Assembly: GCA_949752745.1 (NCBI GenBank) | Contig: OX457024.1 | Span: forward strand, 51,477,810-51,541,809 | DNA from: Protula sp. h YS-2021 | Lineage: Eukaryota; Annelida; Polychaeta; Sabellida; Serpulidae | Length of the DNA: 64,000 nt | Direction of reading: 5' to 3' | In this document: one piece after another, positions 1 through 57,500 of the stretch | Position numbering within the stretch: position 1 is the first letter of the stretch | How the letters are laid out: every line of letters starts with the position of its first letter | Program-made: the position numbers and the translations under genes | The notes under the pieces: model-generated | What the model was told of the DNA's origin: nothing | The model's input: the letters and a program-made list of their open reading frames with translations, nothing else | Databases searched by the model: none

Positions 1-427
1 CATCTCATTATAGCGGCCAACTCCGGTCAGAAGCGTTACCTATAGGCCAGAGACAAAAATAGCACGTATTGGTTCAAACCGGCGTCTTTGAACTGACCCA
101 TTATTTAATTACAATTCCATGCAGTGAATAAACAAAATTCGACATATTTTTGATGGTCCCAGCGATACTGGTTGAACGAAATTTTTCTGTATATGGTTCA
201 AAACAGCCTGCCATATGTCAAAAACCACTAGTAGTCTGTGAAAGTGTCTGGTTCTCTAACAGAAAGACAGCTTTTATTTTAATGTCCATCAGCCCGGCGT
301 CTATACACGATACGCTTATCTCTCCAGAGGTGAGCTGTTACTTAATGCTAGAAAATCCAATCAATTCACATTTTAGATTGATAAAACAACTGTAGGACAA
401 CGCAATTCCTTTAAAAAAATCCCGACC
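1..427. other. Intron sequence, nothing recognised
   Basis: Intron downstream of exon 14. No conserved coding segment, repeat terminus or RNA gene could be recognised. Confidence 0.6.
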
Positions 428-870
428 GCTGTACTGTTCGGCCTGGCGACGAGTGTGTACTTACAAGCTGGCTGTACTGTTCGGCCTGGCGACGAGGGTG
501 TACTTACAAGCTAGCTATACTGTTCGGCCTGGCGACGAGTGTCTACTTACAAGCTGGTTGTACTGTTCGGCCTGCTGACGAGTGTGTACTTACAAGCTGG
601 CTGTACTGTTCGGCCTGGTAACGAGCATGTACTTACAAGCTGGCTGTACTGTTCGGCCTGGCGACGAGGGTGTACTTACAAGCTGGCTGTACTGTTCGGC
701 CTGGCGACGAGTGTGTACTTACAAGCTGGCTGTACTGTTCGGCCTGGCGACGAGTGTGTACTTACAAGCTGGCTGTACTGTTCGGCCTGGCGACGAGTGT
801 GTACTTACAAGCTGGCTGTACTGTTCGGCCTGGCGACCAGGGTGTACTTACAAGCTGGCTGTACTGTTCG
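428..870 (-). repeat. 43-bp minisatellite built from the exon 14/intron junction
   Basis: About ten units of 43 bp. On the minus strand each reads AGGCCGAACAGTACAGCC, AGCTT, then the donor GTAAGTACAC and a short intronic piece. The 23 nt before GTAAGT are identical to the end of exon 14. ACTTAC (the donor on the plus strand) starts at 459, 502, 545, 588, 631, 674, 717, 760, 803 and 846, exactly 43 apart, and all ten are intact. The copy at 846 is the authentic junction. Confidence 0.97.
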
Positions 871-994
871 GCCTCGTGCAGGCGCTTGGCGACGCCCTTG
901 CACACACGCAGCAGTTCCGAAATGCCTTCCATGTGGCAGGCCAGCGTGAAACAATCGTGGGCGTAAATCAAAAGCTCCACTTCCAGATGTAAAG
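852..994 (-). CDS. SPG11: Spatacsin exon 14 of window, start of Spatacsin_C block
   Basis: 143 nt; starts with 2 nt of a split threonine codon and ends in phase 0. The acceptor CTTGTCTTACAG/CTTTAC is strong; the donor is CAGCTT/GTAAGT. The peptide [15 protein letters not shown]...[13 protein letters not shown] is the most recognisable spatacsin segment in the window, nearly identical in pattern to vertebrate ELLILAHHCFTLTCHMEGIIRVL. The last 23 nt of the exon together with the donor are the unit of the adjoining 43-bp tandem array. The next exon lies to the left of the window. Confidence 0.95.
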
Positions 995-3900
995 CTGTAA
1001 GACAAGGTGCGTTACTATCTTATCCATAAATGCTAAATATCAATAGCTTTGAAAGTAATTTTGTACATAACGAGAATGAATTCCAATTATCACGCGAAAA
1101 TTTCTTACGGTTTTCTAGATACTGAGGAGTTTTAACTGCATCTTGTGATCTGCACTGGTGTACACGAAATATGTGTGTAAAGTCAAATTTGTTAAAGGTG
1201 TGTTTTTGCAAAGAAAAACTGGTATCTACCCAATCAAATATCGTGGTTGGCCGCTTGACCGGTGACCACAATAGTAGGTGGCCAGTTGTCCGGTGGCCGC
1301 CCGGTATGGACACCGAAAACCATGATAAATTGGTTCGCGCTTCTTTTTGCATATGCATGTTACTTCCCTAACTGCTTTCCACAAACTAAGGCATTCTGAG
1401 CAATAAAATGGAAGTCTGCATGCTTATTCGCGATTAAAACACGGCTCGGTATTACCTTGTTGTGGGTACGGGATATGGAAGTACTTACTTTGCACGGATG
1501 GATGCACATTGGACGACTGACTAGATACAACCGTCTGCAATAACCTCTGGCCGAGAATGGCCGGGTCATCACACAGCTGTAGCAGCTCATTGACGACCAG
1601 TTTGCCGGCAGACACAGCTTTGCTGCTGCTAGCCGTACTTCTGCTTCCTGCTAAATCACAGATTGCCCAAATACACTTTCATGAGATTGTATGACAAAAT
1701 TCTTAACTAATTAATTATTTAGAACAACGATCAATCATTAAAAACGTATTATTGTCACCTACAGCAGTCACAAGACCGCTGGACAACAACACGCAGAAAA
1801 AAGGGAAGTGGGGATATATTTGTTTTAAAAATTGTGTTTTATTTCATTCTTGTTTATTTTCGATGTGGTCCGTTTGTCTGTCTGATCGAAAAAGAGATCG
1901 GATGACACTGTCAAGACTTTAAGACCGTCAGTTGGTTAGCCGTACCACTCACTGGTACGAATGAAAAGCATCCACGCCTTTATAATCAAGTGCTTGATTT
2001 TCAGCGACCTCATGCTTGGGCATTGCTCCCAAGGAGCATTGGTTCGTGTTCAATATGTCTGTCCGTCTGCAGTAACCAACATCAACAAGGGGAGCCTGGG
2101 CCTTTATTAGAAGACCAGCCCCTGCGTGTGGGAAGGTAGCCCTCACGGATTTTAACTAGCTCATGATAATTAACTAAGATCTCACACCTCTTCCTTTACG
2201 ATCAAAGTTTTGGCAAATTTTAAATCAATCACTGTGAGGGATCGTCAATGGCTTTTAACTAACTTCCCAACCGTGAATAAGCAGTGCCCTTTCTGTGACC
2301 TGGGATTAATCCTCCTTGATAAAGTTTGATTATAAGTTTCAGTGTTTTGAAATGTTTCTTTAACTTAATAGTTAAACGGAAATCACTGTCGTGGTGATGT
2401 TGTAGCATATCTAACTTCTTTAACCCATCAATCAATTCAAAATCAAATGAGATCCAATTATTTTGCCCTTTACAACATTGTCCAGGGACGTTGTGACCAG
2501 CCGAGATCTAGTGAATCACGTATGAATAAGCTTGTATGGTTGCCAAAAAGTGGTAGTCACAGTGTACAAGTTTGTCCAAGGACAAAGTCCCAGCTTAGGA
2601 AAAGCGATAAGACCAATTTCAGCGTGCACGAGCAAGGGATTTTCCTTTCAAATTGAACTTCAAAAGACGAGATGGCAAAGAGCTAACTAAATAATTAATT
2701 TTGACAAAAAGAAAACGCCGCGTCTAAAACAGTTTTGCTTATGTTTGAATTTTTTGTGTGTATGAGTTTGCGGGGTTTGCATTTCGGACCAGTGCGCATG
2801 TTTATTTAACTTGCGTCGATGCGCGATTTGCATTTCGGACCAATGCGTATGTTTATTTAACTTGCCGTTATGATCTGTTCGCATTTCGGACCAGTGCGCA
2901 TGTTTGTTTAGCTTGCGTGGAGTGCGGTTCACATTTCGGACCACTGCGCGTGTTTATTTAACTTGCGTTGATTCGCGTTTCTTATTTTAGACCAGTGCGC
3001 ATGTTTCTTTGACTTTTCTTGATGCGCGGTTATAATTTCGGACCAATGCGCATTTTTATTCAACTTGTGTCTATGCGCGGTCCGCATTTCGGATAAAGAC
3101 GCATGTTTATTCAACTGCCAATTTTTGGCGGATCGCTGAAAAAAATATTTTTCAAGAAAGGGCTATCTAAAGAATATTCATCGAAATTTAAAGAAAATCT
3201 GATCAAAATTGCGGGAGAGGAAGCATTTAGAAAATTGGCTATAAAAAATTATAAATATCGCCCGTTTGGCCAATTTTTGGCGGATCACCAGAAAAACTAT
3301 GTTTCACGAGAGGTATTCCTAATGAACATTTCTGCAAGATCTGAAGACAATCCGATCAAAATTGCAGGAGAAGCATTTTTGAAAATTGGCAACCAAAAAC
3401 TTTTAAAATACCCCCATTTGGCCAATTTTTGGCGGATCGTCAAAAAAGTCACTTTTCAAGAGAGGCTTACCTAGAGAAGAATCGCACAAAATTGGAAAGG
3501 AATTCAATCAAAATTGTGGAAAAAGAAGTATTTTGAAAATTAAACGCCAATAAATTAAAAAATGCCCCCTATTTAGCTAATTTTTGGCGGACCGCCAAAA
3601 AAAAAAGTAAGTTTTCAAGAGAGTCCTACCTAAAGAACATTGGTACAAAAGTTAAAGAAAAACTTACCAAAATTGTGGGAAAAGAAGCACTTTGAGAATT
3701 GGCCAACAAAAAAATTATAAATTCAACCCTATGACCAATTTTTGGCGGATCGCGGATCAGATTTTTCAAGAGAGGCCTACTCTATCTATGTCATAAGACC
3801 AGCCCGACGTAGTTGGCTGGTCTAAAAGCGAAGATGCCCCAGTGTCCCCTGTTTGGTTGGGTGTACGCCCATCATCCTCGGCAAGCCTCGTTTTGAACTA

Positions 3901-14035: not shown

Positions 14036-17000
14036 AAAATCGTATAGACTCCAAAATTTGCATGGGTGTTCCTTGGGTCAGTTCTGCCACCTTTTGACGG
14101 GTGTAGCGAAATTAAGAAAGGGGTATGACGTCATTGAGATAAAATCTTTCTCAGCTGCTGAACATCGGAGAAAGTTCAAACTTGGTGGGAATGTTGTTTG
14201 GTAGGTCCAAAAGATTCTGTCAAAAAGATATCCCGAGTAAAATGAAAGGAAAACGGCAGATGCCGTCATTGGGTAAAAATATCTTGATAACGAAAAATTC
14301 GATCGACTTCAAATTTGGTGTAGTTATTCCTTGGAAAGTCGCACAGTTTTTGTTAAAACTGAACTCATAGAAAACTAAGGAAGGCTCCAATCGCGTGAAA
14401 AGTATTATATGATATATTGTGAACTCACTGAATCTAATACTCCAGCTCCGACCCTCTCCACCTCCAAGGTTTTGTCGGCTGTTTTGGTAACTAAGGATAG
14501 TTATTAAATACGCTTGGGATTTCAGAGTTTTCCACAAGGTTCTCCAATGTTCCTGCATTCTGTAGACATACTTGAAAACATTTCCTTTTCTTCGTTACTC
14601 AGCTACAGCTATTAACGTGTTTTCATTTGGCTGCCAAGCCGTTCAGTATATGGGAGTAACTAGAGCATCAGTCAGGCAGGTTTCCCCGTGTAATACATAA
14701 TGTCATTGGATGTAGTAAATTCAATGAAATTGAAAATCCAGCATTGCTTAACAATTTTTGCTCGATTTAATAAATAAGGTGACCTTTCACAACTACAGTA
14801 TATAAATATATATATTTTCACTGCAAAAAAATTCAGAACGCTAGATCAAATATGTTTCCATAAAAACAGGTTTAAATAAACAAGTTTGTCCAAGAACAGA
14901 GTCCCAGTTTACGAAAAGCGATAAGACCAATTCCAGCGTGCATTTCGGACCAGTGCACGTTTATTTAGCTTGCGTTGATGCGTGGTTCGCATTTCGGATC
15001 AGTGCGCATGTTTATTTAACTTGCGTTGATGCGCGGTTATTATTTCGGACCACAGCGCATGTTTATTTAACTTGCGTTGACGCGCGTTTATTATTTCGGA
15101 TCACTGCGCATGTTTATTTAACTTGCATTGATGCACTGTTTTTATTTTGGACCAGTGCGCATATTTATTTAACTCGCATTGATGCGCGGTTCGCATTTCG
15201 CACCACAGCGCATGTTTATGGAACTTCCGTCGATGCGCACGGTTCGCATTTCAGACCAATGCGCATGTCTATTTCACTTGCAGGGGGAGATGCATTTTGA
15301 AACAAAAGTTTACTAAATGAACAACTAACTAACTGACTACTTGACGCCGTCTGGAAACCTATGCTCTAGCTTGCGTATAACGTAAGCTGTGCTAAGAAAT
15401 ATATTTTTAACAAGTCGTATGTTTGACACTTTTAGCCGATTTCAAAAATAATGCGACGTTGCATATGTACAGTATATATATTTTTACTGAATAACATTTC
15501 AGAACGCTGGATTGAATAGTTTTAGAGAACTGGTCTGTAACAAATTTTCCAAAAAAACCGGCCATTTATGTCAAGTATTTTTGACAATTTTTGGCCGATG
15601 TCTTAAACTAGACTGGCCAGTGCACACAAAGTACAGGCTTATATTACACACTTTCAATCGATACCTACTTAGTTTCTTGTTCTTGTAAACAAAAACAAAT
15701 GTCTCCCCGACTAAACCCATAATTCCCCCCCGCCCCCAAAAAAAGTTTTACTTAATTTTAATTACTGAAATTAAATATTCATTTCAGCAAACATAATTAT
15801 AATTCATTGTAAAAAATTCAAAATAAACAAAACAGATGGTGGTCCCTAAAACAGATATTATTGCATTGTCTTTTTCATCCGAGTCTGGAAGGTGGTCGCT
15901 AACACGGGTTTTACTGTATGCCCTTCTTATCCGAGTCTGAAATTTGGTCAAGACAGGTAGGTTTTACCGTACGTCTTTTTACGCGAATCTGAAGCAGTCA
16001 CGACAACGGGGTCTTACTTTACATCTTTTTATCCAGATCTTGAAGGTGGTCTGAATTTTTTTTGTTAACCATCTTCGCCCACACCCCATCTCCCCAGCTA
16101 TCTAATATAGGTACGACTTTAAACGCAACTCATCCATTTACCTAAGGTAACGGTGACGGTCTGTACCCTAAGTGTAGTTATCGCCATGCTATACTACCTT
16201 GTATTCGTACATTCCCATCGGCCAAAAAGCACTAAAAAGGCATTTTTAATAACTGCGCATTAGATGACGCACCTCGGTGGGAAAAGGGGAGGGGGTGGTG
16301 TATTTCGCTGCCAAAATGGTGAGCTGCTTCTCATACCACAAGATATCAGATGAAATACTTTAATAGCGAAAAATGCTTCTAGGTACTGCAAACAATGCGA
16401 ACCGATAAAATAGCTGCCATACATGGAACACTTTGGCACCGAATCAAGCATGCGGCGAAAAAAATCAATAGCTAGACCTGCTGAGGTTAAACTGCTGAAT
16501 ACAACACTGGCATTCCATGAACTCGTAGATAAAGACTCCATCATGCATCACAGCTGACACTGACTTCTAACTGAGTAAAATGTTGCATAACAGAAGTAGA
16601 TGAGAAATGCACAAAAAGCTCAGTTTCAGGCAATAACAAATAGCAATGGACGCCAGTAAAGCTATTACTGTTTTGAAGCATTCTAAAGAATGCAGAAACA
16701 CTCGAGCATCTTCACAAAAACACTGAAATCCCCAGCGTAGTTAACAACTATGCTTGGTTAACAAAGGAGCCAAAAAATGAGGAGGCGGGCTGGGGGGTGT
16801 TGACCTTATGCACCTTTCTTGATTTTCTATACGAGTTTAATAAGATTTATCTTAATTTCACCACACGCGTCAAAAGTTGAAACAGTCGTCTGACTGAAAC
16901 GAGCCATATCCATATAAAATTTCAAGTCGATATGACTTTCCGTTATCGAGATATTGTGCATACAAGATCTGGTTCAAAATAAACATATTTTAAGTGATGA

Positions 17001-20800: not shown

Positions 20801-23800
20801 GAGAGGTTATGTTTTGACGATTCACGTATTTACCGACATTTACACGATTTTACAAAATTTTTAAAATTCCACCATTTCGGCATTTTCTTGTCATTTGCGA
20901 AAAAAAAAGAAAAGTCCAGGTGGAGAAGCACCTAAGAAACTTTCGATTAAAATTTTATAACTATTTCAAAAGGACGGAGAGAAATGAATGGTTTCACATT
21001 CAGTTATTTACTACCATTTATTCCAGTCTTTGCCAAACTTTAAAGTTCCGCCATTTCGGCAGTTTTTGGCGAACCTCAGGGGAACATCCCTGCATATCAT
21101 CTAAACGATTGGAGTAAAACTGTAGGAGGAGTAGCATTTAAAAATTAGGTCAAACGGGCACAAAGTCTTCCTAGAAGCTGTTGCATATAAACAGCACAAC
21201 TATGTTCATTAAATGTTCAAAAAGTCCCCAACAACGCATAAAAACGAATGTAACCCAAAAAGAGTATAAAAACGTGTATTTTTCCAAAAAGGCAAAAAAA
21301 AGTATAATACGTAAGAAACGTATGGTCTGGCAGCACTGGCTATGAAAGTTACAAAAAGAAAATTCCACACCCCTCCCCCGTCCCCCGTTGGTGGTTCACC
21401 AGAAACGTAATTTTTCAAGAGACGGCATTTCTGCAACATTTGAGGGCATTCCGATCAAAATTTTGGAAGAAAACAAGTATGCGCAATACAAAGTCCCAGC
21501 TTACGAAAAGCGAGAAGACCAATTCCAGCATGGATGAGCAATGGAATTTCCCTAAAAAAAATTGGGCTTCCAAAGACCAGGAGCTAAAGAGCTAGCTAGA
21601 TAACAGCAGCGAACCCAAAACATAGACCAATAAATACATACAAAGATTTATTTCCGAGAAAAATGAGAAACAGATCTTGTCTATCTCTGATAGACTGGAT
21701 AGCGTACGAGAGATACCTTCGAACAACTTATCGAAATTATATCCATAAAGCTGTTGGTCGGGCATTAACAATTATTTCAACAGTGCAAATGTTTGTTTAG
21801 CTTGCGCTGATGTGTGGTTCACATTTCAGACCAGTGCGCATGTTTATTTGACTTGCGTTGATGCGCGGGCGGCATTTTAACGTGCGATGATGCGCGGCTG
21901 GCATTTCGGACCCAAGGTCATCTTTATTTAACCTCCGTTGACGTGCGGTTCGCACTTCAAACCAGTGCGCATGATTTTTTAACTTGTATCGCTGCGCGGT
22001 TCGCATTTCGGAGTGCGCATGTATATTCAACTTCCGTTGATAAGCGTGTCGCATTTCGGATTAGTGCGCATGTTTATTTAGCTTGTGTTGGTGCGCGGTT
22101 AACATTTCGTTTTGGTTTGGTTTATTGGTGTTTTAAGTCCCTTTCAGCGATCTCAGCGCTATATCAGGACTACCCTGCCACATTATACTGAAATGGGTCA
22201 TTCGAGTTTAAATCACTAGGGGGATCATAACTGAGTGCACAGCTAATAGGCACGAGAAGGATTCGAAACCGCACCGGCTATACACCCTAGATCTGAAGAC
22301 GAGCGCTTTACCAACTGAGCTACCTGCCCCCTTCACATTTACGCGCTTCATATTTTAGAGCAGTGCGAGTGCTTGGTATTTCGAACCAGAGCGCATGTGT
22401 ATTTAACTTGCATTGATACGTGATTCGCACTTCGGACAAGTGTGCATGTTTGATGTTGATGTTGGATGTTTATTCTGGACCAGTGCGAATGTTTACTTAA
22501 TTTGCGTTAATCCGAGGTTGTGGGCGCTTCTATTGGACCAGTGCCTATGTTTATTAACACTTGACAAGTCTTTGACTTGGTCAAGGCTTACATGAATTTT
22601 TGCAGGCAGCTGTTGGGCTATTTTTTTCTTGACAGTAAAAATTCATTTTCTTGTCTCAGTTTCTTCTCTGACACTACACGTCCTAGGACCATAAAACTTT
22701 TCACTTATGTAGAACTTGATCTGAGGGTGTGCATCCCGCCTTTTTACGTCTACGATTTCGTTTTCATGCTTAAAACGCCATTCGAACACAGCTGATTTTA
22801 GAATAAATAAATACAGCGCATTTAAAAGCAAAGAACAGCACAGCTTATGGGCGTTACGCGAGCTCTGCCTGCACAGAAAAAAATACTAGTCCGTTCAATC
22901 AATAAAGCCGCTGAGCCAACATAACCAAGCAGATGAACCTTATAAGCTGCTCCATAAGCTCTCTACTTAGCTGTATCACAGACTATGCGGCTCGTGAAAA
23001 AAACTTCATGTTGTTCAAGAAATAATAGGCCGTTCAAAGAAATATTTTGAATTTTTTATGTTTATATGTTTTAATGTTTATCAATTATTGAAGATTTCAC
23101 TTGCGAAATGCGGTTATAGTTAAACTTGCGATGATGCGCGGTTGACATTTGGGGTAACAGCACATGTTAACTTAATTGCGTCGATGTGCGGTTTGTATTT
23201 CGGACCAGTGCACATATTTATTTAACTTGCCTCGAAGCACCGTTCGCATTTCAAACATGCGCGCATATTTATTTAACTTGCGTCGATGCACTTGTTTATC
23301 CAAGCGCTTGTTTATCCAACTTCCGTTGATGACTGGTTCGTATTTCGGACCACTGCGCAGGTTTACCTAAGTTGCTTTGATGTGCGTTTCTTATTTTAGA
23401 CCAGTGCGCATGTTTATTTAACTTGCGTTGATGCGTGGTTAGCATTTCGGACCAGAGCGCATGTTTATTTAGCTTGCGTTGATGCATGGTTCGCATTTCG
23501 GACCACTGCGCATGTTTACTTAAATTGCATTGGTGTTGGGTGCTTATTTTTGATCCAGGGGCGCATGTTTATTTAACTTACGCTAATGGGCGGTTAGCAT
23601 TTAGGACCAGTATGCATGTTTATTTAGCTTGCGTTGATGTGTGGTGCTTATTTTGGACCACTGCCTAATTTTATTTAACTTGCGTTGATGTGCGGTGCTT
23701 ATTTTAGACCAGTGCGCATGTTTATTCAACTTCCGTTGATGAGTGGTTCACATTTCGGACGAGTGCGCATGTTTACTTAGCTTGGGTTGATGCACGGTGC

Positions 23801-26800
23801 TTGTTTTGGACCTGTGCGCATGTTTATTTAACTTCCATCGCTGCGCGGTTCGCCATTCGGTCCACTGCGCATGTTTATATAGTTTGCGTCGACGCGCGGT
23901 TGTTATTTCGGACTACTGCGCAAGTTTACTTAACTTGCTTTGATGCGCGGTGCTTGTTTTGGACCAGTGCGCATGTTTATTTAAAAGACTCACCTAAAAA
24001 TAAAAAATTCTCAAATCCAGTCAAAAATCACAAATCATATACCCAACCCACCTAAGGTTGCCTCAAATCAAAATAAATGAAATCGGATAAAAGCTGTAGG
24101 AGGAAATACATTTTGAAGTTTTCTCTTCAAAAATTCGCGCAAAATACAAAAATTGTCCGATCGACTAAAAAAGCATAAGCAATATGCAGGGCCTCTTAGG
24201 GATACGTCACAACAAAAATTATTGAAATCGGATAAAAATCGTAGGCGGAAATGCATTTTGAAGTTTTTTTCTTCAAAAATTCCCCCAAAATACAAAAACT
24301 GTCCGATCCAGTCTAAAAGCACAAGCTGTATGTACGATCCCCTAGGGATGCCTCATACCAAAAATTAATGGCATCGGATCAAAAATGTAGTGGAAGATAC
24401 ATTTTGAAACATAAATTTACTTAATAAACAAATAACTAACGTACGCCGTATACCCCACCTAAAGTGTAACGTAGGCTGGGCTTAAAATGGCTTCCCTTTT
24501 CTCAAATTTTTGGCGGATAGCGAAAAAAAAAAAAGGAATTTTTCCAGATTTCCAGATAGGCCTACCTACAGAACAATCGTACAAAATCGGAAAGGAATCC
24601 GATACAAATTCTAAGAAAAGAAGCATTTTGAAAATTGGAAGCCACTAAATTAAAAAATGTCCCCCCTACTTTGTGAATTTTTGGCGAATCGACAAAAAAG
24701 TTATTCTTCAAGAGAGGCCAACCTAGAGACACCAAAAAAATAAAAAGGGCAACATTTCGCCAATTTTTGGCGCATCGCCAAAATGAGTAATTTTTCAAGA
24801 GGCTTACGTGGAGAATAATCGTACAAAATTTGAAGAAAATCTGATAGAAATTGTGTGAAAAGAAGCATATTGAAAATTGGCAATCATAAAATTATTAATG
24901 CCCCCCCCCCCCCATTTGGCCAATTTTTTGTCGAACAACAAAAAAGGTATATTTTCAAGAAAGGCCTATGTTAAGAACAGTCGTACAATATTTAAAGAAA
25001 ATCTGATCAAAATTGTTCGAAAAGAAGCATTTTTAAAACTGGCAAAACTTTTTGGCGAATCGACAAAAAAGTTATTCTTCAAGAGAGGCCAACCTAGAGA
25101 CACCAAAAAAATAAAAAGGGCAACATTTCGCCAATTTTTGGCGCATCGCCAAAATGAGTAATTTTTCAAGAGGCTTACGTGGAGAATAATCGTACAAAAT
25201 TTGAAGAAAATCTGATAGAAATTGTGTGAAAAGAAGCATATTGAAAATTGGCAATCATAAAATTATTAATGCCCCCCCCCCCCCATTTGGCCAATTTTTT
25301 GTCGAACAACAAAAAAAGTATATTTTCAAGAAAGGCCTATGTTAAGAACAGTCGTACAATATTTAAAGAAAATCTGATCAAAATTGTTCGAAAAGAAGCA
25401 TTTTTAAAACTGGCAAAACTGGCGGATCTCCAAAATAAGTAATTTTTCAAAAGAGGACTACCTAGAGATTAGTCTGTAAGATTTAAAGAAAATCCGATCA
25501 AAACTGTAGGAGAAGAAGTATTTTGAAAACTGGCAACCGAAAAAAAATTAAATGGCCCCCATTTGGCCAATTTTTGGCGGATGTCCTTTTTATCCCGGTA
25601 TTGAAGTTGGTCATTACAGTAGTTTTACTGTAAGTACTTTGTTTATTCGGGTCTGAAAAGTGGTCAAGAACGCAGGTTTTACCGTACGTCTCGTTATCCG
25701 AAAGTGGAAGTTGGTCACTACAAACCGGTTTTACTTTACGTCTTTCTATCTGGATCTACAATGTGGCAGTTACAAATAGGTTTACCGAAACAGCTTTTTT
25801 GCTAGCCTTAACCAACCCCTCCCCCAGCTATCTAATTCAGGTACGACTCTAAAGGCAACCCTAACCATTTTAGCCAACGGTACGGTAAGGGTTTGTACAC
25901 TAAGTGTAGTTATAGCCATAAGGAATAACTTGTCTTCGTACATTTCCTTGGTCAAAAAGCACTAGACAGATATTCTTCATAACTGTGCCACACAAGACCC
26001 ACCTCGGTGGGACAGTTGAGGAAGGCATTGTGGTGTCAATATAGTGCGCTGCTTGTCATAACACAATGTATTAGATGACCCACAGCGGAAAGTCGATCCG
26101 ATTATCCGTTATCGAGACATTTGTACCCAATGACATCCGGGTACATTTGACAGAATCTTTCGGACCCACCAAGCAACATTCCCACCAAGTATCAACTTTC
26201 TCCGATGTTCAGCGGCTAAGAAATGTAGACATATAAGATTTCAACATGACGACACTTTCTACACCCTGCAAAAGTTGACAGGACCGTCCAACAGACCCAA
26301 GGAACAACCATACAAAATTTGAAGTCCATATGACTATCCGTTATCAAGATATCTTGCACACAAGATCGTGTTCAAAATATATACGTATTTTACGTGATGA
26401 CGTCATACGCCACACTCACTCGTTATACTCGCGACAAAATTTGACAGCCGTTTTCGGACCCACCATGCAACAATCCCACTAAGTTTGAACTTTCTCCGAA
26501 AGTTCTCTCCGGCTGAGAAATTTCGCACACGAGATTTTTACGTAATGACGTCATACATCTTCCATTATAATGTAACATGCGTCAAAAGTTGAAAGAACCG
26601 TCCGACCTAACCAAGGAATGAACAGGTCAAGTTTGAAGTCGATCCGGCGTTTCGTTCTCGAGATATCTTGCACACAATATCTGTTCAGACACACACACAC
26701 ACACAGAACGTACAAACACTATATATGTCCCTTTGGTCGGGGAGACATAATTTTTAAGATGCCAAGGAAGCTGCCAAAAACAAAACAGACGACACACAGT

Positions 26801-35800: not shown

Positions 35801-38800
35801 AACAAAGGACAGAGATTATCTTTTGTGGCACAATGACTCCGAAATCTGGCATCTAAAGACAGTGATGGGAAGTAACTGAAAGAGTCTTTACATTAGTAAA
35901 ACATTAAGGCAGTGATTTGTACAAACAGGGATTAACCTGTGGCACAGTGCTTCGGAAATCTCAAGAGAGTGATGGGGAGTAATTGAAACAAAACATCAAG
36001 GCAGTTATCTTTAAAAACATAATGAAGTTTGTTTTTTTTTTTACTTTTTATTTTATTACATATTTTATTAAATAATTAAAACTCAAAATCCTAGAAAAAA
36101 TTCTCAAGGCCCTTTTGTCCAACTTTTCATTTAGGGCCGTTTTGGGAAAGCCCTTTTTGGGAAAGGCCGTTTTGGGAAAGGCCCTTATGTCCAAGGCCCT
36201 TTTGTCCAAGGCCCTTCTGTCTGGATACCAGTTCGGAGATATAGAGAGGACTGAAATGCGGACAGACGGACAAGCTCATAACTATATCCCTCTGTTACAC
36301 TGGGGGGATAACAACTGCCTGGCCCCTTTTGGCCAATATTTCGTTCGGGGACGTTATGTCCCGGTTCCTTTTGTGTGAGGCCTTACGTCCAAGGCCGTTA
36401 TGCCCAGGGCCCTTCTGTTCCGGATTCATAAATGACAGCTTCTCGTATAAATCTAATCTAACCTTGAAGAATTTTGCGGCAACAACTTGATTAGTTTCTT
36501 GCTGGGACAGGATCTTTTCTGCGCGCTGCCAAAATTCCTCCTGCACTGCGGCACACTGCCATACGTCACTGGACATCAGTCCACGCAGTTCTGTGCTGAG
36601 CTGAAAATTGATGGCGCTTTGATAACCAAATTTTTTAATTATTTAGCATTTAACAAGTTTGTCCAAGGACAAAGTCCAAGCTTACGAAAAGCAATAAAAC
36701 CAATTCCAGCGTGCATGAGCAAGGGAGTTTTCCTGAAAAATTTGGCTTCAAAAGATGAGACGGCAAAGAGCTAGCCCAATAATTAATTTAGCACCGGGCC
36801 AGAACATAGATCGATAAATGCATACAAAGATTTCTTTCCCAGAAAAATGGGAAACAGATTTTTTGTATCTCTGGTAGACAGGAAGGTCTGCCATAGATAC
36901 CTTCAAACAACGCTTGCATTTTGGACCAGTGCGCATATTTATGTAACTTGCCTTGATGCGCGGTTCTTATTCAGACAAGTGCGCATGTTTATTTAATTTT
37001 GCGTAGATGCGCGGTTCTTATTTCGGATCATTGCGCATCTTTATTTACATTGTGTTGATGTGCGGTTCTTATTTCGGATCAGTGCGCATGTTTATTTACC
37101 TTGTGTTGATGTGCGGTTCTTATTTCGGATCAGTGCGCATGTTTATTTACCTTGTGTTGATGTGCGGTTCTTATTCCATACCAATGCGCATGTTTATTTT
37201 ACTTGCGTTCATGAGCGGTACTTATTTCGGACAGCCCAAGTTTTCTTACGTTGCCTTGATACGCGTTTCGTTGATGCAAGGTGCTTATTTTGGTCCAGTG
37301 TGCTTGCTTATTGCGCGTTGGTGCGCGGTTTGCATTTTGGACCAGTGTGCATGTTTATTTAACTTGCCTTGATGAGCAGTTCGAATTTCGGATCATTACG
37401 CATGTTTATTTAACTTGAATTAATGCGCGGTTCGAATTTCGGACCAGTGCGCATGTTTATTTAACTTGCGTTGATGCAAGGTGCTTATTTTGGACCAGTG
37501 CAAATTTTTATTTAACTTGCGTTGGAGCGTGGTTCGCATTTCGAACTACTGCGCATGTCTATTTAACTTGCGTTGATGCGCGGTTCGAATTTCGGAGAAG
37601 TGCGCATGTTTATTTAACTTGCGTTGATGGCCGGTGCTTATTTTAGACCAGTGCAAATGTGTATTTAACTTACGTTGGCGCGTGGTTCGCATTTCGAACC
37701 ACTGCGTATGTTTATTTAACGTGCGTCGATGCGCGGTTCTTATTTCAGGCCAATGCGCATATTTCTTTAACTTGAGTTGATGCGCGGTTCTTATTCTGGA
37801 CCAGTGCGCATGTTTTATTTAATTTGCGTTGATGCGCAGTTCTTATTTTGAATAGTGCGCATGTTATTTAAGTTGCGTTAATGGGCAGTTCGCATTTCGA
37901 CATAGTGCGCATGTTTATTTAACTTGCGTTGATGCAAGGTGCTTATTTTGGTCCAGTGTGCTTGCTTATTTAGCTTGTGTTGCTGTGCGGTTCGCATTTC
38001 GGACCAGCGCGCATGTTTTTTTTTAACTTGTGTTGATGCGTGGTTCGCATTTTGGACCATTGCGCATATTTATTTATCTTGTGTTGATGATCGGTACTTA
38101 TTTTTGACAGGTGCAAATGTTTATTTAACTTACGCTTATGTGCGGTTCGCAATTCGGACCAGTGTGCATGTTTATTTAATTTGCGCTGATATCCGGTTCG
38201 CATTTCGGACCAGTATACCTGTTTCTTTAGGTTGCGTTGATGCGCAGTTCGCATTTTGGGACAAGTGCGCAGGTTCATTTAACTTGCGTTGACGCGCGAC
38301 TTGCGTTTCGGACCAGAACGCATTTTTATTTAAGTCCCGTCGATGTCCGACTCTTATGTCTATTCAACTTGCGTCGATTCATGGTTCTTTCTTCGGACCA
38401 CTGCGCGTGTTTTTTTAACTTGCGTTGATGCGCGGTTCTCATTTCAAACCACTGCGCATGACTATTCAACTTGCGTCGATGCGTGGTTCTTTTTTCCGGA
38501 CAAGTGCGCATGTTTCTTTAACTTGCATTGATGTGCGGTGCTTATTTTGGACCGCATGTTTATTTAACTTCCGTCGATGCGCGGTTCGCATTTCAGGCCA
38601 TTGCCCATGTTTATTTAACTTGTGTTGATGCGTGGATCTCATTTCAGAGCAGTGCTCATATTTATTTAACTTGCGTTGATGCGCCATTCGCATTTCGGAC
38701 CACTGCGCATGTTTATTTAATTTGCCTCGATGTGCGGTTCGCATTTCGGACCAGTGCGCATGTTTCTTTAGGCTGCGTTGATGCGCGGTTCGCATTTCAG

Positions 38801-41251
38801 ACCACTGCGCATGTCTATTCAACTTACGTCGAAGCGTAGTTCTTTTTTTCGGACCAGTGCGCATGTTTATTTAACCTGCGTTGATGCGCGGTGCTTATTT
38901 TGGACCAGTTCGCATCTTTATTTATCTTCCGTCGATGCGCAGTTCACATTTCGGACCAATTCGCATGTTTATTTAACTTGCATCGATGCGGAGTACTTAA
39001 TTTGGACTACTGCGAATGTTTCTTTAACTTGCGCCGATGTGCGGTTGTTAAATCTGACTACTGCGCAAGTTTATTTAACTTGCGTTTATGCGCTGGAGGA
39101 GGAGATTCATTTAATTTTTTTTTTTCAACTTGCGTTGATGCAAGGTGCTTATTTTGGTCCAGTGTGCTTGCTTATTTAGCTTGTGTTGCTGTGCGGTTCG
39201 CATTTCGGACCAGCGCGCATGTTTTTTTTAACTTGTGTTGATGCGTGGTTCGCATTTTGGACCATTGCGCATATTTATTTAACTTGTGTTGATGATCGGT
39301 ACTTATTTTTGACCGGTGCATGTCTATTCAACTTACGTCGAAGCGTAGTTCTTTTTTTCGGACCAGTGCGCATGTTTATTTAACCTGAGTTGATGCGCGG
39401 TGCTTATTTTGGACCAGTTCGCATCTTTATTTATCTTCCGTCGATGCGCATTTCACATTTCGGACCAATGCGCATGTTTATTTAACTTGCATCGATGCGG
39501 AGTACTTAATTTGGACTACTGTGAATGTTTCTTTAACTTGCGCCGATGTGCGGTTGTTAAATCTGACTACTGCGCAAGTTTATTTAACTTGCGTTTATGC
39601 GCTGGAGGAGGAGATTCATTTAATTTTTTTTTTCAAAAATTCCGAAAAAATTCAAAAGTTTTCCAATTCACTCAAAAAGCACAAGCCGTATGCATGACCC
39701 CCTAGAGACGGCTCATATCGAAAATAAATGAAATCTGATAAAAACTGTAGGAGGAAATGCATTTTGAATTTTTTTCTTCAAAAATTCTCTCATCGACTGA
39801 AAAAGACAGGCCATATTCACGACACCCTAAGCATGCCTCAGCCCCAAAATAAATGATGTTTGATCAAAACTGCCGGAGAAAATGCATTCTGAGGTATTTT
39901 CATCAAAAATTCCCCCCGAAATCAAAAATTCCCAAGTCGAGTCAAACAGCATAGGCCGTATGCGAGACCTACCAAAGGATGCCTCATAGCAAACATAAAT
40001 GAAATCGGATAAAAACTGTAGGAGGAAATGCAACTTTTTCTTCAAAAATTCCCAAAAAATACAGAAATTGTCGGATCGACTAAAAAGCGCAAGTCGTATT
40101 CTCAACCCCTTAGGGATGCCTAAAACTCAAAAAAAAAAAAAAAAAAAAGGTTCAAAACTGTAGGGGGAAATGCATTTTGAAGTTTTTTTCTTCAAAAACT
40201 CCCTAAAAATATAAAAATTGCCCGATGGACTAAAAAGCACAAGCCGTATGCACTCACACCAAAAATAAATATCGTATTTTCAACCCCTTAGGGATGCCTC
40301 AAACCCAAAAAAAAAAAAAAAAAAAAAAAGGTTCAAAACTGTAGGTGGAAATGCATTTTCAAGTTTTTTTCTTCAAAAACTCCCTAAAAATACAAAAAAT
40401 GCCCGATGGTCTAAAAACCACAAGCCGTATGCACTCATACCAAAAATAAATGTCGTATTCTCAACCCCTTAGGGATGCCTCAAACCCCCCAGAAAAAGGT
40501 TCAAAACTGTAGCGGGAAATGCATTTTGAAGTTTTTTTCTTCAAAAACTCCCTAAAAATACAAAAATTGCCCGATCGACTAAAAAGCACAAGCCGTATGC
40601 ACTCACACCAAAAATAAATGACATCGAATCAAAATTGTAGTTGTAGATGCTTTTTGAATTATTTTCGAAATTTTTGCTTAAAAAATTCCCCAAAAATATA
40701 AACTAAAAAAGCATAAGCCGTATGCACGAACCTTCAGGGGTGCCTCATACCAAAAATAAATGACATCGGGTCCAAAATGTAAGAGGATATGCATTTTAAA
40801 ATTTCTTCAAAAAATCCCCAAAAATTCAAAAATCACCCGATCGACTAAAAAAGCACAAGCCGTATGCATGACCGCTTGGGAAATCCTCACACCCAAAATA
40901 AATGACATCGAATCAAAATTGTAGGAGTAGATGCATTTTTTTCAAAATTTTTGCTTAAAAAAATCCCCAAAAATACAAAAATTGTCCGATCGACTAAAAA
41001 AGCACAAGCCGTATGCACGACCCTTTAGGGGTGCCTCATACCAAAAATAAATGACATCATGTCAAAAATGTAGGAGGAGATACATTTTTAATTTTTTTCT
41101 TAAAAAATTCGCCAAAAATTCAAAAATCACCCGATCGACTAGAAAAGCACAAGCCGTATGCACGACCCCTTAGGGATGCCTCACACCAAAAATAAATGAC
41201 ATCGGATCAGAATTGTAGGAGGAGATGCATTTTGAAACAAAGTTTACAGCG

Positions 41252-46090: not shown

Positions 46091-48466
46091 TTTTTTTTTT
46101 TTTGATAATATTTTTTGTAAGAAATGGATAATTTTCCAAAAAATAAATAGGCGACAAAATATTTAATTAGCAGTTAAAAAAACAGGTTTTAATAACTTTA
46201 ATTGGCCACTTTCGTAAAAAAAAATAGGTCCATTTTGAAAAAAAAATAGGTGTAATAGGTTTTAATAGGTTTAATAGATTCCGCTGGAGGGCCTGCTATT
46301 TTCTTTGCCATCTCAGATGCAGAACTGACGCCCAAATCGGAACACACGTTTGTGGATGTGGGAAGTTTTTCCCTTTGAAAATTCCCAACCGCTATTTGAA
46401 CTAGAGCTTCAGTGAGGCAGGATCCCCCGTGTAACATAATGTCATTGGATGTTAGTAAATTCATTGAAATTGAAAACCCTACGTTGCCTAACAATTTTTG
46501 GTCGGTTTAAAAAATAAGACGACTTTGCAAATCTTCAATATACGTATTAACCGCAAGTAAAACCAAAAAGCATTAGCATTAACAGTTTTGGAGTTACGGC
46601 CTGGACAAAATGTCACATCTTTGTACATTCGAACTAAATTTTCATCTATTTTCAAAATACTGTCATTTTTTTCTTTTCTTTTCTTTTCAAACTATACCCC
46701 TCCGTTACACGGGGGATAATCAGATTATGTTATCAAATCTATGCGTTATCAAACATCTTTATATTTATATAATTTACAATCAAAATCAAAAGGCCAAGAG
46801 GGGTGTCTTTTGTTGCCAAGTTCGTTTACCACTTTTCTCATGTTGCACCGCTAATTAAATTTAGTGTTGAAAAGGGTACCAATCTTATGTGGCTCAAGTA
46901 TACTTTCATTGATCTGAATATATCAGAACGCAAGATTTAGTTTCAAGATTTTTTCCACTTTTCCACTACTTTTGTTTTATATATATATATATATATATAT
47001 ATTTCATATGCAATGGGCCAAGAAAATGTTCATAATAATTAATTTCAACCAAAATAGTCACCTGGTTTATTGTGGTATCTTCGGCTGGCAATTTGAGGTT
47101 TTCTTGAGCTACCCGAGCTTTGTTCCAACACCCTTTACTTTGCAAACTCTCCACCACCCTTGTCCATTCCTCAACAAACTCGGAGCTGTTGATATCCAAT
47201 AGCCGTCCGTACTTTACATCAATGTTTTCATCTTTCACAAGGAGAGCAATTTTATGCAGTAACGGGATATTTGGAACTGTAAAAAACGAAACATATGATG
47301 CTGTAACAGGTTGACGAGAACCTGAGCACTTTTCAGCTTCGTCATTCTGGCAATCTTTGACAGATCGTCGAAAAAAGTAAAAGCCTTGAGAAGATATGAC
47401 TGACATCACAAGAGATTCAGCCAAACGTCTCAGGATGAGCCAAACGTCGCAGAGTCAGCCAAACGTCTCAGAATCAGCCAAACGTCTTTGAGCCAGCCAA
47501 ACGTGTCAGAATCAGCCAAACGTCTTAGAGTCAGCCAAACGTCTCAGAATAAGCCAAACATCGCAGAGTCAGCCAAACGTCTCAGAGTACCAACATTTTT
47601 TTTTAAATCTGTGACTAATCCAGTTCTGGCACATGAAAATAATAGCTTAGTAAAAGATGACATGGGAAGCACTTACTTCAAATATGTTCATAATTCGACT
47701 AAATACCCAACCGTCTTAAAAATGTTCTGATATATGGAATGCCGTTTTCACATTTATCAGGGAATTATTGATATCAAGAATTAATTTTTGATCTCAAAAA
47801 TTGATTTTTTAGCGTCATAAAAACAGAATTGATACATGAACTTTTAAAGCCCAAATTATAACTTTCTTGCATTATCGCCAGCTTAAAAATGATCGGAGAC
47901 ACCCGCAACTAACATTTAAAACGGCAACATTAACCAAAGAAATATTTTGTGCTATGTTTCCTATTATCGCCCAATGCTCCCCATTATCGCTCACCCGAGA
48001 AATATCATATTCTCATATTTTAGAGTCACAGAATTGATTCCTGCATTTTTAAAGCCAAAAATTGCAACTTTCTTGCATTATCGCATACTTGAAAATGATT
48101 GGAGACATACATAAATGATATTTAAAACAGTTAAATTAACAAAAGAAATGTTTTGCACTATGTTTCTATTATCGCCCAATGTGCCTTATTATCGCCCACC
48201 CAAAAAATATCATATGTCTCATATTTTAGAGTCATAGAATTGATTTCTACACTTTTAAATCAGAAATTACAACTTTCTTGCATTATTGCCCACTTAAAAA
48301 TGATCGAAGACATCCATAACTAATATTTAAAACGGCTGCATTAACAAAATAAAGACATCGATGTATCATATTTTCGGGTTATAGAACTGATTCCTAATTT
48401 TCGACATCTTACTTTTTTTTTGGGGGGGGGGAGTGGTTATATATATATATATATATATATATATAA

Positions 48467-54500: not shown

Positions 54501-57500
54501 AACATATTTTTTGTCACTGAATAAAGTTGCCAAAAACTGAATCTTATATTGTTTGAGAACTTGGTGTGTGTGTGTATCTCTGTGTTTGTAGGGGTAAACT
54601 TATCTCTGTGTTTGTAGGGGTAAACTTATCTCTGTGTTTGTAGGGGTAAACTTATCTCTGTGTTTGTAGGGGTAAACTTATCTCTGTGTTTGTAGGGGTA
54701 AACTTATCTCTGTGTTTGTAGGGGTAAACTTATCTCTGTGTTTGTAGGGGTAAACTTATCTCTGTGTTTGTAGGGGTAAACTTATTCCACATTTCATAGT
54801 AAAATCATTAAAAATTATAGAATTCGACTCAGACGTACTTTTTTACCCCTGACCTAGATTTCTTTCGTTGCAAAACTTTACTGCGGACGGACGGACACGC
54901 GACAAGAGGACAGCCGCAACTACTGGTATAGCCTAGGTGGTCCCAGGCCACCAGGACTAAAAAAGAAACAAGGCTGGAAGAAAACAATAGAGGAAGATTT
55001 TACCGGGAGGAACAGCTGAAATGCGGTGAACAGTGTAGGAGCACTGTTTGTTTCAAGAGTTTCACGCCACAGGTACTGCAGATCTCTAAGAGTCCATTGT
55101 GTTTTGCCGCCTGGACACACCTCCCTGCTGTCACCAGGCAGTGAGGACGAAGACGGAAGTGATGACGACAGCGGAAGTGATGACGACAGCGGAAGTGATG
55201 ACGACAGTGGAAGTGATGACGACAGCGGAAGTGATGACGACAGCCAGCTGCACAAATACGCCAAGTCACTTTGTCCCTAAAGGTACAACAGCAATTGTCA
55301 GCAAATCTCATTCATTAATTTAAAAACAAAGCAACCGCTTCGATTTGAATTATAAGTGAAAAACATCTTTTCCACAATTTTTGGACAGTTTTTGGAATTT
55401 ACAGAAATGTATCTTTAGGTATATTCTTACATTTGCACGTATAAACTACAAGAATGTCCAGAAGCATTGTGACCAGCCGAGATCTAGTAAATCAGTAGGC
55501 TTGCATGATCGCCAAAAAGTGGTTGTCATATTGTTAAACCCGGTTGTTGAAAATTCGTACAAACTTGCACAGAAATCCGGTCAAAAATGTGGGAGAAGAA
55601 GCATTTTGAAAAATTTAAAATGCCCCCATTTAGCCAATTTTCTTTTGGATCGCCAAAAATAGTACTTTTTCAAGAGAAGAAAGCCTGTTGAGCATTTATG
55701 TAAAATTAGAAAGTAATCCGATCAAAAATGTGTAAGAACAAGCCATCGCCGAAGGCGCAGATCCCAACCGGACACAACAAGTCGCCATTTACGTAATTTT
55801 TGACCAATGTGAAAAATAATACGACGTTGCTCAACTTCAATATATATATTCACTGTGCAAGGTAGCATATGCCCAGGATAAATAGTTTCGGAGAACTCGC
55901 GTGGAAAGCACCCAAGTCTTACACTGCAGTTATCTAAAAAAAAAAATCACAATTTTTGACAAGTCGATATTTTAGCAATTTTTTTACCGATTTGAAAAAT
56001 AACACAACGTTGCACAACTTCAATATATATATTTTCACTGTGCAAGGTAACATATGCCTAGGATAAATAGTTTCGGAGAACTCACGTGGAAAACATTACA
56101 GTTACGTCCAAAAATCACAATTTTTGACAAGTCGCCATTTTGGCAATTTTCGGCCGATTTGAAAAATAACACGAAGTTGTACAACTTCAATATATATATA
56201 TATCTTCTCTGTGCAAGGTAGCATATGCCTAGGATTAATAGTTTCGGAGAACTTGGAAACAAAACAGCATCCAAAGTGTGACACACGGACGGACGGACGG
56301 ACAGACGGACGGAAGGACAGAGGGTAATCCTATAGACCCCCCAGGGCTCGCCCGGTTGGGGTCTAAAAACTTTTGGAAAATTGGCTACGAAAAATATCAA
56401 AGGGCCCGAAACTAGGGTCTCAGTAAAACGGGATTCACCGTGTAACATAAATTATACAGTAAAACCTTCATCTCCGAACACGTCCCAATAGTGAACACTT
56501 TCTATAATGGAGGAGTTATCTCGGTCCAAAATTCCCCTATTCACTTTTTCACCGATTTCAAAAATAATACGACGATGCACATCTACAATATGTATATTTT
56601 AACTGTGTAAGGTTGCAGGTCCCCACGGCAAATGGTTATATGCGAAGTGGTGCGGACTAAACACAAGTCCAATGTAAAGTTTGGCAAATTTTGTCAATTT
56701 GTCATTTTCTAGTTGAATTTTGTCTTTAAAGCATGTAAAAACATTGTAAAGCTTATAGTACTTGTTTTACTTTGGGGACGTTTTGGCTTTAATTCATTTG
56801 GGGCAGCAGAAGTTATTATGAATTAATACTGATATGACGCGTTTGAAGTGCTGCCTAGAGAACAGCTAGAATTCCCCTAGTAAATTACTGGTGAATTACT
56901 TGTGAAATACTACTGAATTACTTGCATTTTCTGCTCATTTCTTTAACAACAACAAAAAAAAAAAAAAAAAAAAAGGATTGTGTCTTACGATAATTTATGA
57001 AAAGTTCAATTTTTGTTCTAACATCCCTACCCTCCCGAAAATGAGTTAATGTAACTGGAAGGCAGGACAGAACTGACCGCTGCCCCTTTATATAAACCTA
57101 ATTATCCTTTGAGGAACCCCGGTGGCAAGCGATCAGTATTAAAACAGATAATTCCATGTAAGCAGCATTCAACATTTTATGTGATTCGGACTTTCACGAC
57201 TTTGACCAGTTATTTAAACTCCCGAACAATTGTCAGATAGAAAGGCCTAGTCAGTGTGGATGGGCATGTCTCCCCCCCCCCCCCCCCACCGATCGCGCCC
57301 CCCCCCCCCCCACCGATCGCGCCAACACTTGTTCTTGTTACTGGTTGCGAAATAGCAGGAACAATAGCATGATATGTCATCAACTCCCAAAATTTCTATT
57401 ATCCCATTTCTTTCCACTTACTGTTGATCTCAAATACACTGGCAGACACGTGTTCCCGTACCCAACCCGATCTTAAATACACTGGCAGACACTTGTTCCC

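Follow-up and report, generated by a model that had tools for sequence, protein, structure and literature searches.

The minus strand of the window, the whole stretch of 64,000 nucleotides analysed, carries a spatacsin exon whose 5' splice site is present ten times, raising the question of which site ends the exon and whether the extra copies are tolerated or act as a device that tunes splicing. We think it probable that a minisatellite has formed over the 5' exon-intron boundary of spatacsin, of the type known in amphioxus as a mirage, with the first donor being real and copies 2-10 being decoys. The array, here termed array A, consists of 10.4 copies of a 43-bp unit at 428..874 (minus strand), as delimited by Tandem Repeats Finder (94% matches and 0% indels at period 43), the splice-site positions and the unit consensus. 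In the consensus unit, GTAAGTA separates 23 exonic nt from a spacer of 13 nt, so that a full copy holds 23 nt from the end of the exon and 20 nt from the start of the intron, 5' splice site included. The intron-side end of the array is a partial copy. The first-pass annotation had described the unit as the exon-intron junction itself, with ten intact GTAAGT sites 43 bp apart, and both descriptions are accurate: GTAAGT is intact in 10/10 full copies on the minus strand, starting at plus-strand coordinates 851, 808, 765, 722, 679, 636, 593, 550, 507 and 464, with a distance of 43 at 9/9 spacings. Individual units differ from the consensus at 0-4 positions. The unit bridges the exon-intron boundary of a real exon and the splice signal recurs in the copies, as in mirages, and the boundary is that on the donor side, as for the human CBS repeat. 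Array A as a dispersed repeat was ruled out, as 172 array bases matched one locus, in the form of three overlapping matches, among the best-scoring candidates of a search of 863 Mb in 218 contigs in which only the best candidates were scored.

The exon carrying the reiterated donor spans 143 nt (852..994, minus strand) and was recognised by matches to a spatacsin chain and to Pfam. Donor positions and frame reading identify the first GTAAGT (846..851, minus strand) as the sole one of ten giving spatacsin; splicing at any of the nine other intact donors (459..808, minus strand) would run into a premature stop. With the first donor used, the junction reading gives an intron of 812 nt (40..851, minus strand) ending in ...GGCCTATAG, followed at position 39 by the start of the next spatacsin exon, VTLLTGVGRYNEM... 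(1..39, minus strand; spatacsin matches and junction reading), which continues beyond the window. Joined at the first donor, the exon pair corresponds to approximately residues 2116-2172 of the solved spatacsin PDB chain 8yad_B (E 3.1e-12) and matches Pfam Spatacsin_C (E 3.8e-21). The junction is gap-free in the spatacsin alignment, the single one-residue gap lying further upstream within the exon. More spatacsin-like pieces are present in the correct order across the window and outside it, ten with E <= 0.01, the weaker pieces being unreliable individually. This mapping, for which the query was what we take to be a C-terminal spatacsin stretch, covers the C-terminal part of the gene. The gene start probably lies outside the window, as much of the spatacsin protein lies upstream of the exon. 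Designation of the exon as exon 14 in the first-pass annotation could not be confirmed, since it is the C-terminal gene part that was mapped. The spatacsin protein to which the exon aligns, around residues 2116-2172, has 2443 residues.

Reading of the frame at the later donors indicates why a single donor is productive. With donor 2, an extra 43 nt puts the transcript out of frame and a stop follows inside the next exon, and donors 3-10 all reach one common stop, the TAA of the third GTAA in the array; for donor 3 this stop arises by joining to the next exon, which itself starts with GTAA. A premature stop is therefore encountered at 9/9 later donors (2-10), rendering all nine unproductive, and donor 1 alone remains open. 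The earlier frame argument, including closure of the read-through frame in the third GTAA and the assertion that only the first site gives spatacsin, holds on the DNA. Such a read-through stop is automatic: when GTAA recurs at a period that is not a multiple of 3, one copy in every three falls in the frame in which it reads TAA.

The same gene contains a second donor array. Array B lies two exons on, just outside (left of) the window, where Tandem Repeats Finder detected 33.2 copies of a 74-bp unit in the adjacent 10 kb (L009 3117-5576). It begins at the end of a spatacsin exon, ENKLKLAILDYLERY...KHVPL, of ∼169 nt by the likeliest acceptor, which matches Spatacsin_C (E 1.9e-14). The unit comprises 47 exonic nt and 27 intronic nt, GTGAGT is intact in 33/33 copies with 32/32 spacings equal to 74, and the units are 99.2% identical to their consensus. 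Read-through past donor 1 meets a stop within the first intronic segment and thus only the first donor gives protein. The units of arrays A and B differ in both length and sequence.

We propose that the last 23 nt of the exon and the first 20 nt of the intron were tandemly amplified into the intron, in which case the first copy would have stayed the real exon end and donor while copies 2-10 would be intronic decoys carrying an identical U1 target. Exon definition would then run from the acceptor to whichever donor is closest and transcribed first, giving normal spatacsin mRNA. In transcripts spliced from a later donor the premature stop would precede further introns, and such transcripts would probably be removed by nonsense-mediated decay. 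Length of array A is presumably unstable, and length variation is a usual mark of mirages. Counting against this explanation, nothing in the U1 sites favours the first donor, as the sequence from -3 to +7 is identical at all ten. Where there is a choice of two 5' splice sites, SRSF1 can promote use of the intron-proximal one (PMC5585400). With ten look-alike donors in one array and thirty-three in the other, a single one being productive in each, the gene offers a natural experiment on how the spliceosome chooses between identical 5' splice sites. Invariable use of the first donor would mean that site strength counts for less than exon definition or the order of transcription; otherwise array length would be a mutable control of dose.

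Comparison with known systems places the spatacsin arrays closest to the amphioxus mirages, with which they have in common boundary-spanning tandem units and repeated splice signals. Mirages are described as tandem units over an exon-intron boundary, many with splice signals, occurring in Adh3, the globins BflGb6 and BflGb9, troponin C and PGBD5; the units measure 10-72 bp in Adh3 and as much as 150-160 bp in BflGb6 (PMC3087553, PMC3902484). RT-PCR suggests that splicing is not disturbed (PMC3087553), and the Adh3, globin, troponin C and PGBD5 mirages are reported or suggested there to be harmless to splicing (PMC3087553, PMC3902484). In contrast to the spatacsin arrays, which repeat the donor in up to 33 copies, BflGb6 repeats the acceptor side, in haplotypes of 3 and 6 copies. 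The human CBS 31-bp VNTR, situated at the exon 13-intron 13 boundary (PMC5188458, PMC1395315), resembles array A in its donor-side position; however, it is placed in non-coding sequence (PMC5188458), whereas array A repeats a coding exon end and its later donors bring a stop. Boundary tandem repeats in human segmental duplications alter splicing, with 27 intron modifications (PMC2812944), mostly as new introns in recent paralogues. The evidence also differs in kind: RNA and length variation are documented for amphioxus mirages, a variable number of units with a bearing on enzyme activity for the CBS VNTR, and transcript support for the segmental-duplication repeats, whereas arrays A and B are described here from the DNA of one assembly. 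An earthworm case was dropped, as the repeats lie inside introns (PMC12783039). Among the literature matches listed, from which subscription papers were largely absent, there was no spatacsin array and no non-lancelet mirage, which is weak evidence of absence. The 11 contigs of 33-114 Mb in the host genome do not fit lancelet karyotypes, and the host is probably another kind of animal. If the array host is not a lancelet, mirages are suggested to reach beyond a few lancelet genes.

Donor arrays also occur at other genes. Twenty GTAAGT clusters were selected from a listing that extended to 14 Mb on contig 1 and fetched, and in 4/20 an open frame with Pfam support terminates at the first donor. 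These are an IntS14 beta-barrel exon (L049/L064; Pfam 6e-12), a GBP-domain exon (L042/L066; 9.4e-13) of a protein that we take to be atlastin-like, a GPR180/TMEM145 exon (L052/L065; 1.1e-19) and a NIDO exon of a nidogen-like protein (L038/L067; 9.5e-9). In each of the four the Pfam match halts at the donor or close to it with the domain model still incomplete, which is what an exon end should look like. Two further open frames (L035 and L037) end at the donor without a Pfam match and are plausible exon ends, inclusion of which raises the count to 6/20. In the remaining 14/20 no exon was recognised at the first donor; several of these arrays visibly extend upstream of the first listed donor, and three (L040, L044 and L050) gave no Pfam match. 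In the pieces read, the GPR180/TMEM145 array contains 15 GTRAGT sites 41-43 bp apart and the IntS14 array 13, and several decayed donor copies are found in the atlastin-like array (GTAAAT, GTATGT) and the L035 array (GTAAGC, ATAAGT). Donor arrays were found in 0/15 arbitrarily placed 10-kb pieces. They were found in 5/5 of another set (L015-L019), a proportion uninformative on frequency because these pieces were chosen from listed clusters. Array A is a mirage-type minisatellite in a genome with recurrent arrays at several genes.

Recurrence at several genes raises the possibility that arrays are directed to donors, a feature of the 5' splice site such as bound U1, R-loops or microhomology seeding minisatellites in this lineage, an explanation we regard as improbable. 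In its favour are the presence of two donor arrays within one gene and the 4/20 fetched arrays at Pfam-supported exon ends, or 6/20 with the two Pfam-less open frames. The array A spacer, in addition, has a 7-nt word, or 8 nt if the A after it is counted, in common with exonic sequence immediately 5' of the copied 23 nt, which looks like an exon segment that was copied and then lost 13 nt. Shuffled spacers reached 7 nt in 334/20000 cases against the nearest 60 nt and in 1079/20000 against the whole upstream exon, and derivation of the unit from a copy of exon and intron together, shortened by 13 nt, is suggestive only. The frequencies, however, argue against targeting. Enrichment of GTAAGT in tandem arrays as a whole was rejected, as three GTAAGT at 20-50-bp spacing occur at 3733+4663 places versus 5465+5440 for the reversed control. 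In the 94-kb spatacsin region, arrays with a period >= 10 and copies >= 3 span 14.1% of bases, and 2/14 mapped spatacsin exon ends, four of which rest on weak matches (E >= 1), lie inside arrays versus 2.0 expected by chance. Extrapolation from 66 in 150 kb gives ∼380,000 GTAAGT genome-wide and, if true GTAAGT donors number 50,000-75,000, which is our guess, 13-20% of GTAAGT arrays would be expected at donors versus the 4 (or 6)/20 observed. No clear surplus of donor-sited arrays emerges from this small sample, the frequencies roughly fitting chance in a repeat-rich genome. Misassembly of array A or of its copy number is more improbable still and we give it very little weight. One amphioxus mirage was apparently misassembled in a draft genome (PMC3087553), but the array A copies are non-identical, a single locus was found among the best-scoring candidates, this locus sits on a 114-Mb contig and independent arrays of like kind occur at other genes.

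The tunable device put forward in the first-pass annotation corresponds to a length-variable attenuator of the CBS type, in which later donors are partly used, the resulting transcripts decay and more copies mean less spatacsin. We consider this unlikely, although it is the less improbable of the alternatives to tolerance. A precedent is provided by the human CBS 31-bp VNTR, in which more units accompany lower CBS activity (PMC5188458), and a stop follows every non-first donor in array A and likewise in the 33-copy array B. The distribution of variable columns in array A, 7/13 in the spacer versus 3/30 in exon plus donor (Fisher p 0.004), is also in the direction expected, but this test was devised post hoc and, taken by itself, the donor, with 0/7 variable columns, gives p 0.17. 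No concentration of variation in the spacer is observed in array B (2/47 exonic, 0/7 donor and 1/20 spacer columns), and the atlastin-like and L035 arrays contain decayed donors. Extension of the idea to a genome-wide class of heritable, fast-mutating attenuators at hundreds of exon ends, in which the proportion of productive mRNA would depend on the number of copies, is more doubtful again. Between the two readings offered earlier, tolerated drift is the better supported because like arrays occur at other genes, two with decayed donors, because the spatacsin exon ends inside arrays number 2 versus 2.0 expected, and because RT-PCR in amphioxus points the same way; the tunable device, which has the human CBS VNTR as precedent, is less so. 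The best reading of the sequence is therefore that minisatellites caught a donor and are tolerated, the exon-anchored first donor probably being the one used. Silent tolerance is not assured since human CBS activity falls with more copies (PMC5188458), and a splicing leak dependent on copy number is possible at array A.

Other repeats were observed that were left out of the counts or lie apart from the donor arrays described. At L015 3119-3505 a 32-bp array with GTAAGT and GTGAGT extends from the end of a long open frame; the open frame ending at its first donor gave no Pfam match above cut-off and the array was excluded from the count. L016 and L017 contain 29-34-bp arrays directly after the open frame of a small one-helix membrane protein and were excluded as donor arrays at an exon, as the membrane protein may terminate at the TAA within GTAAGT (the first GTAAGT in L016). 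L018 and L019 were excluded from the count, there being no clear coding exon. Within the window, short arrays at 55140-55244 and 47413-47588 lie just upstream of spatacsin-like exons, perhaps on the acceptor side, and related 51-bp arrays (GCGCATGTTTATTTAACTTGCGTTGATGCGCGGTTC...) are found at 36916-39602, 23304-23985, 14940-15281 and 2769-3116.
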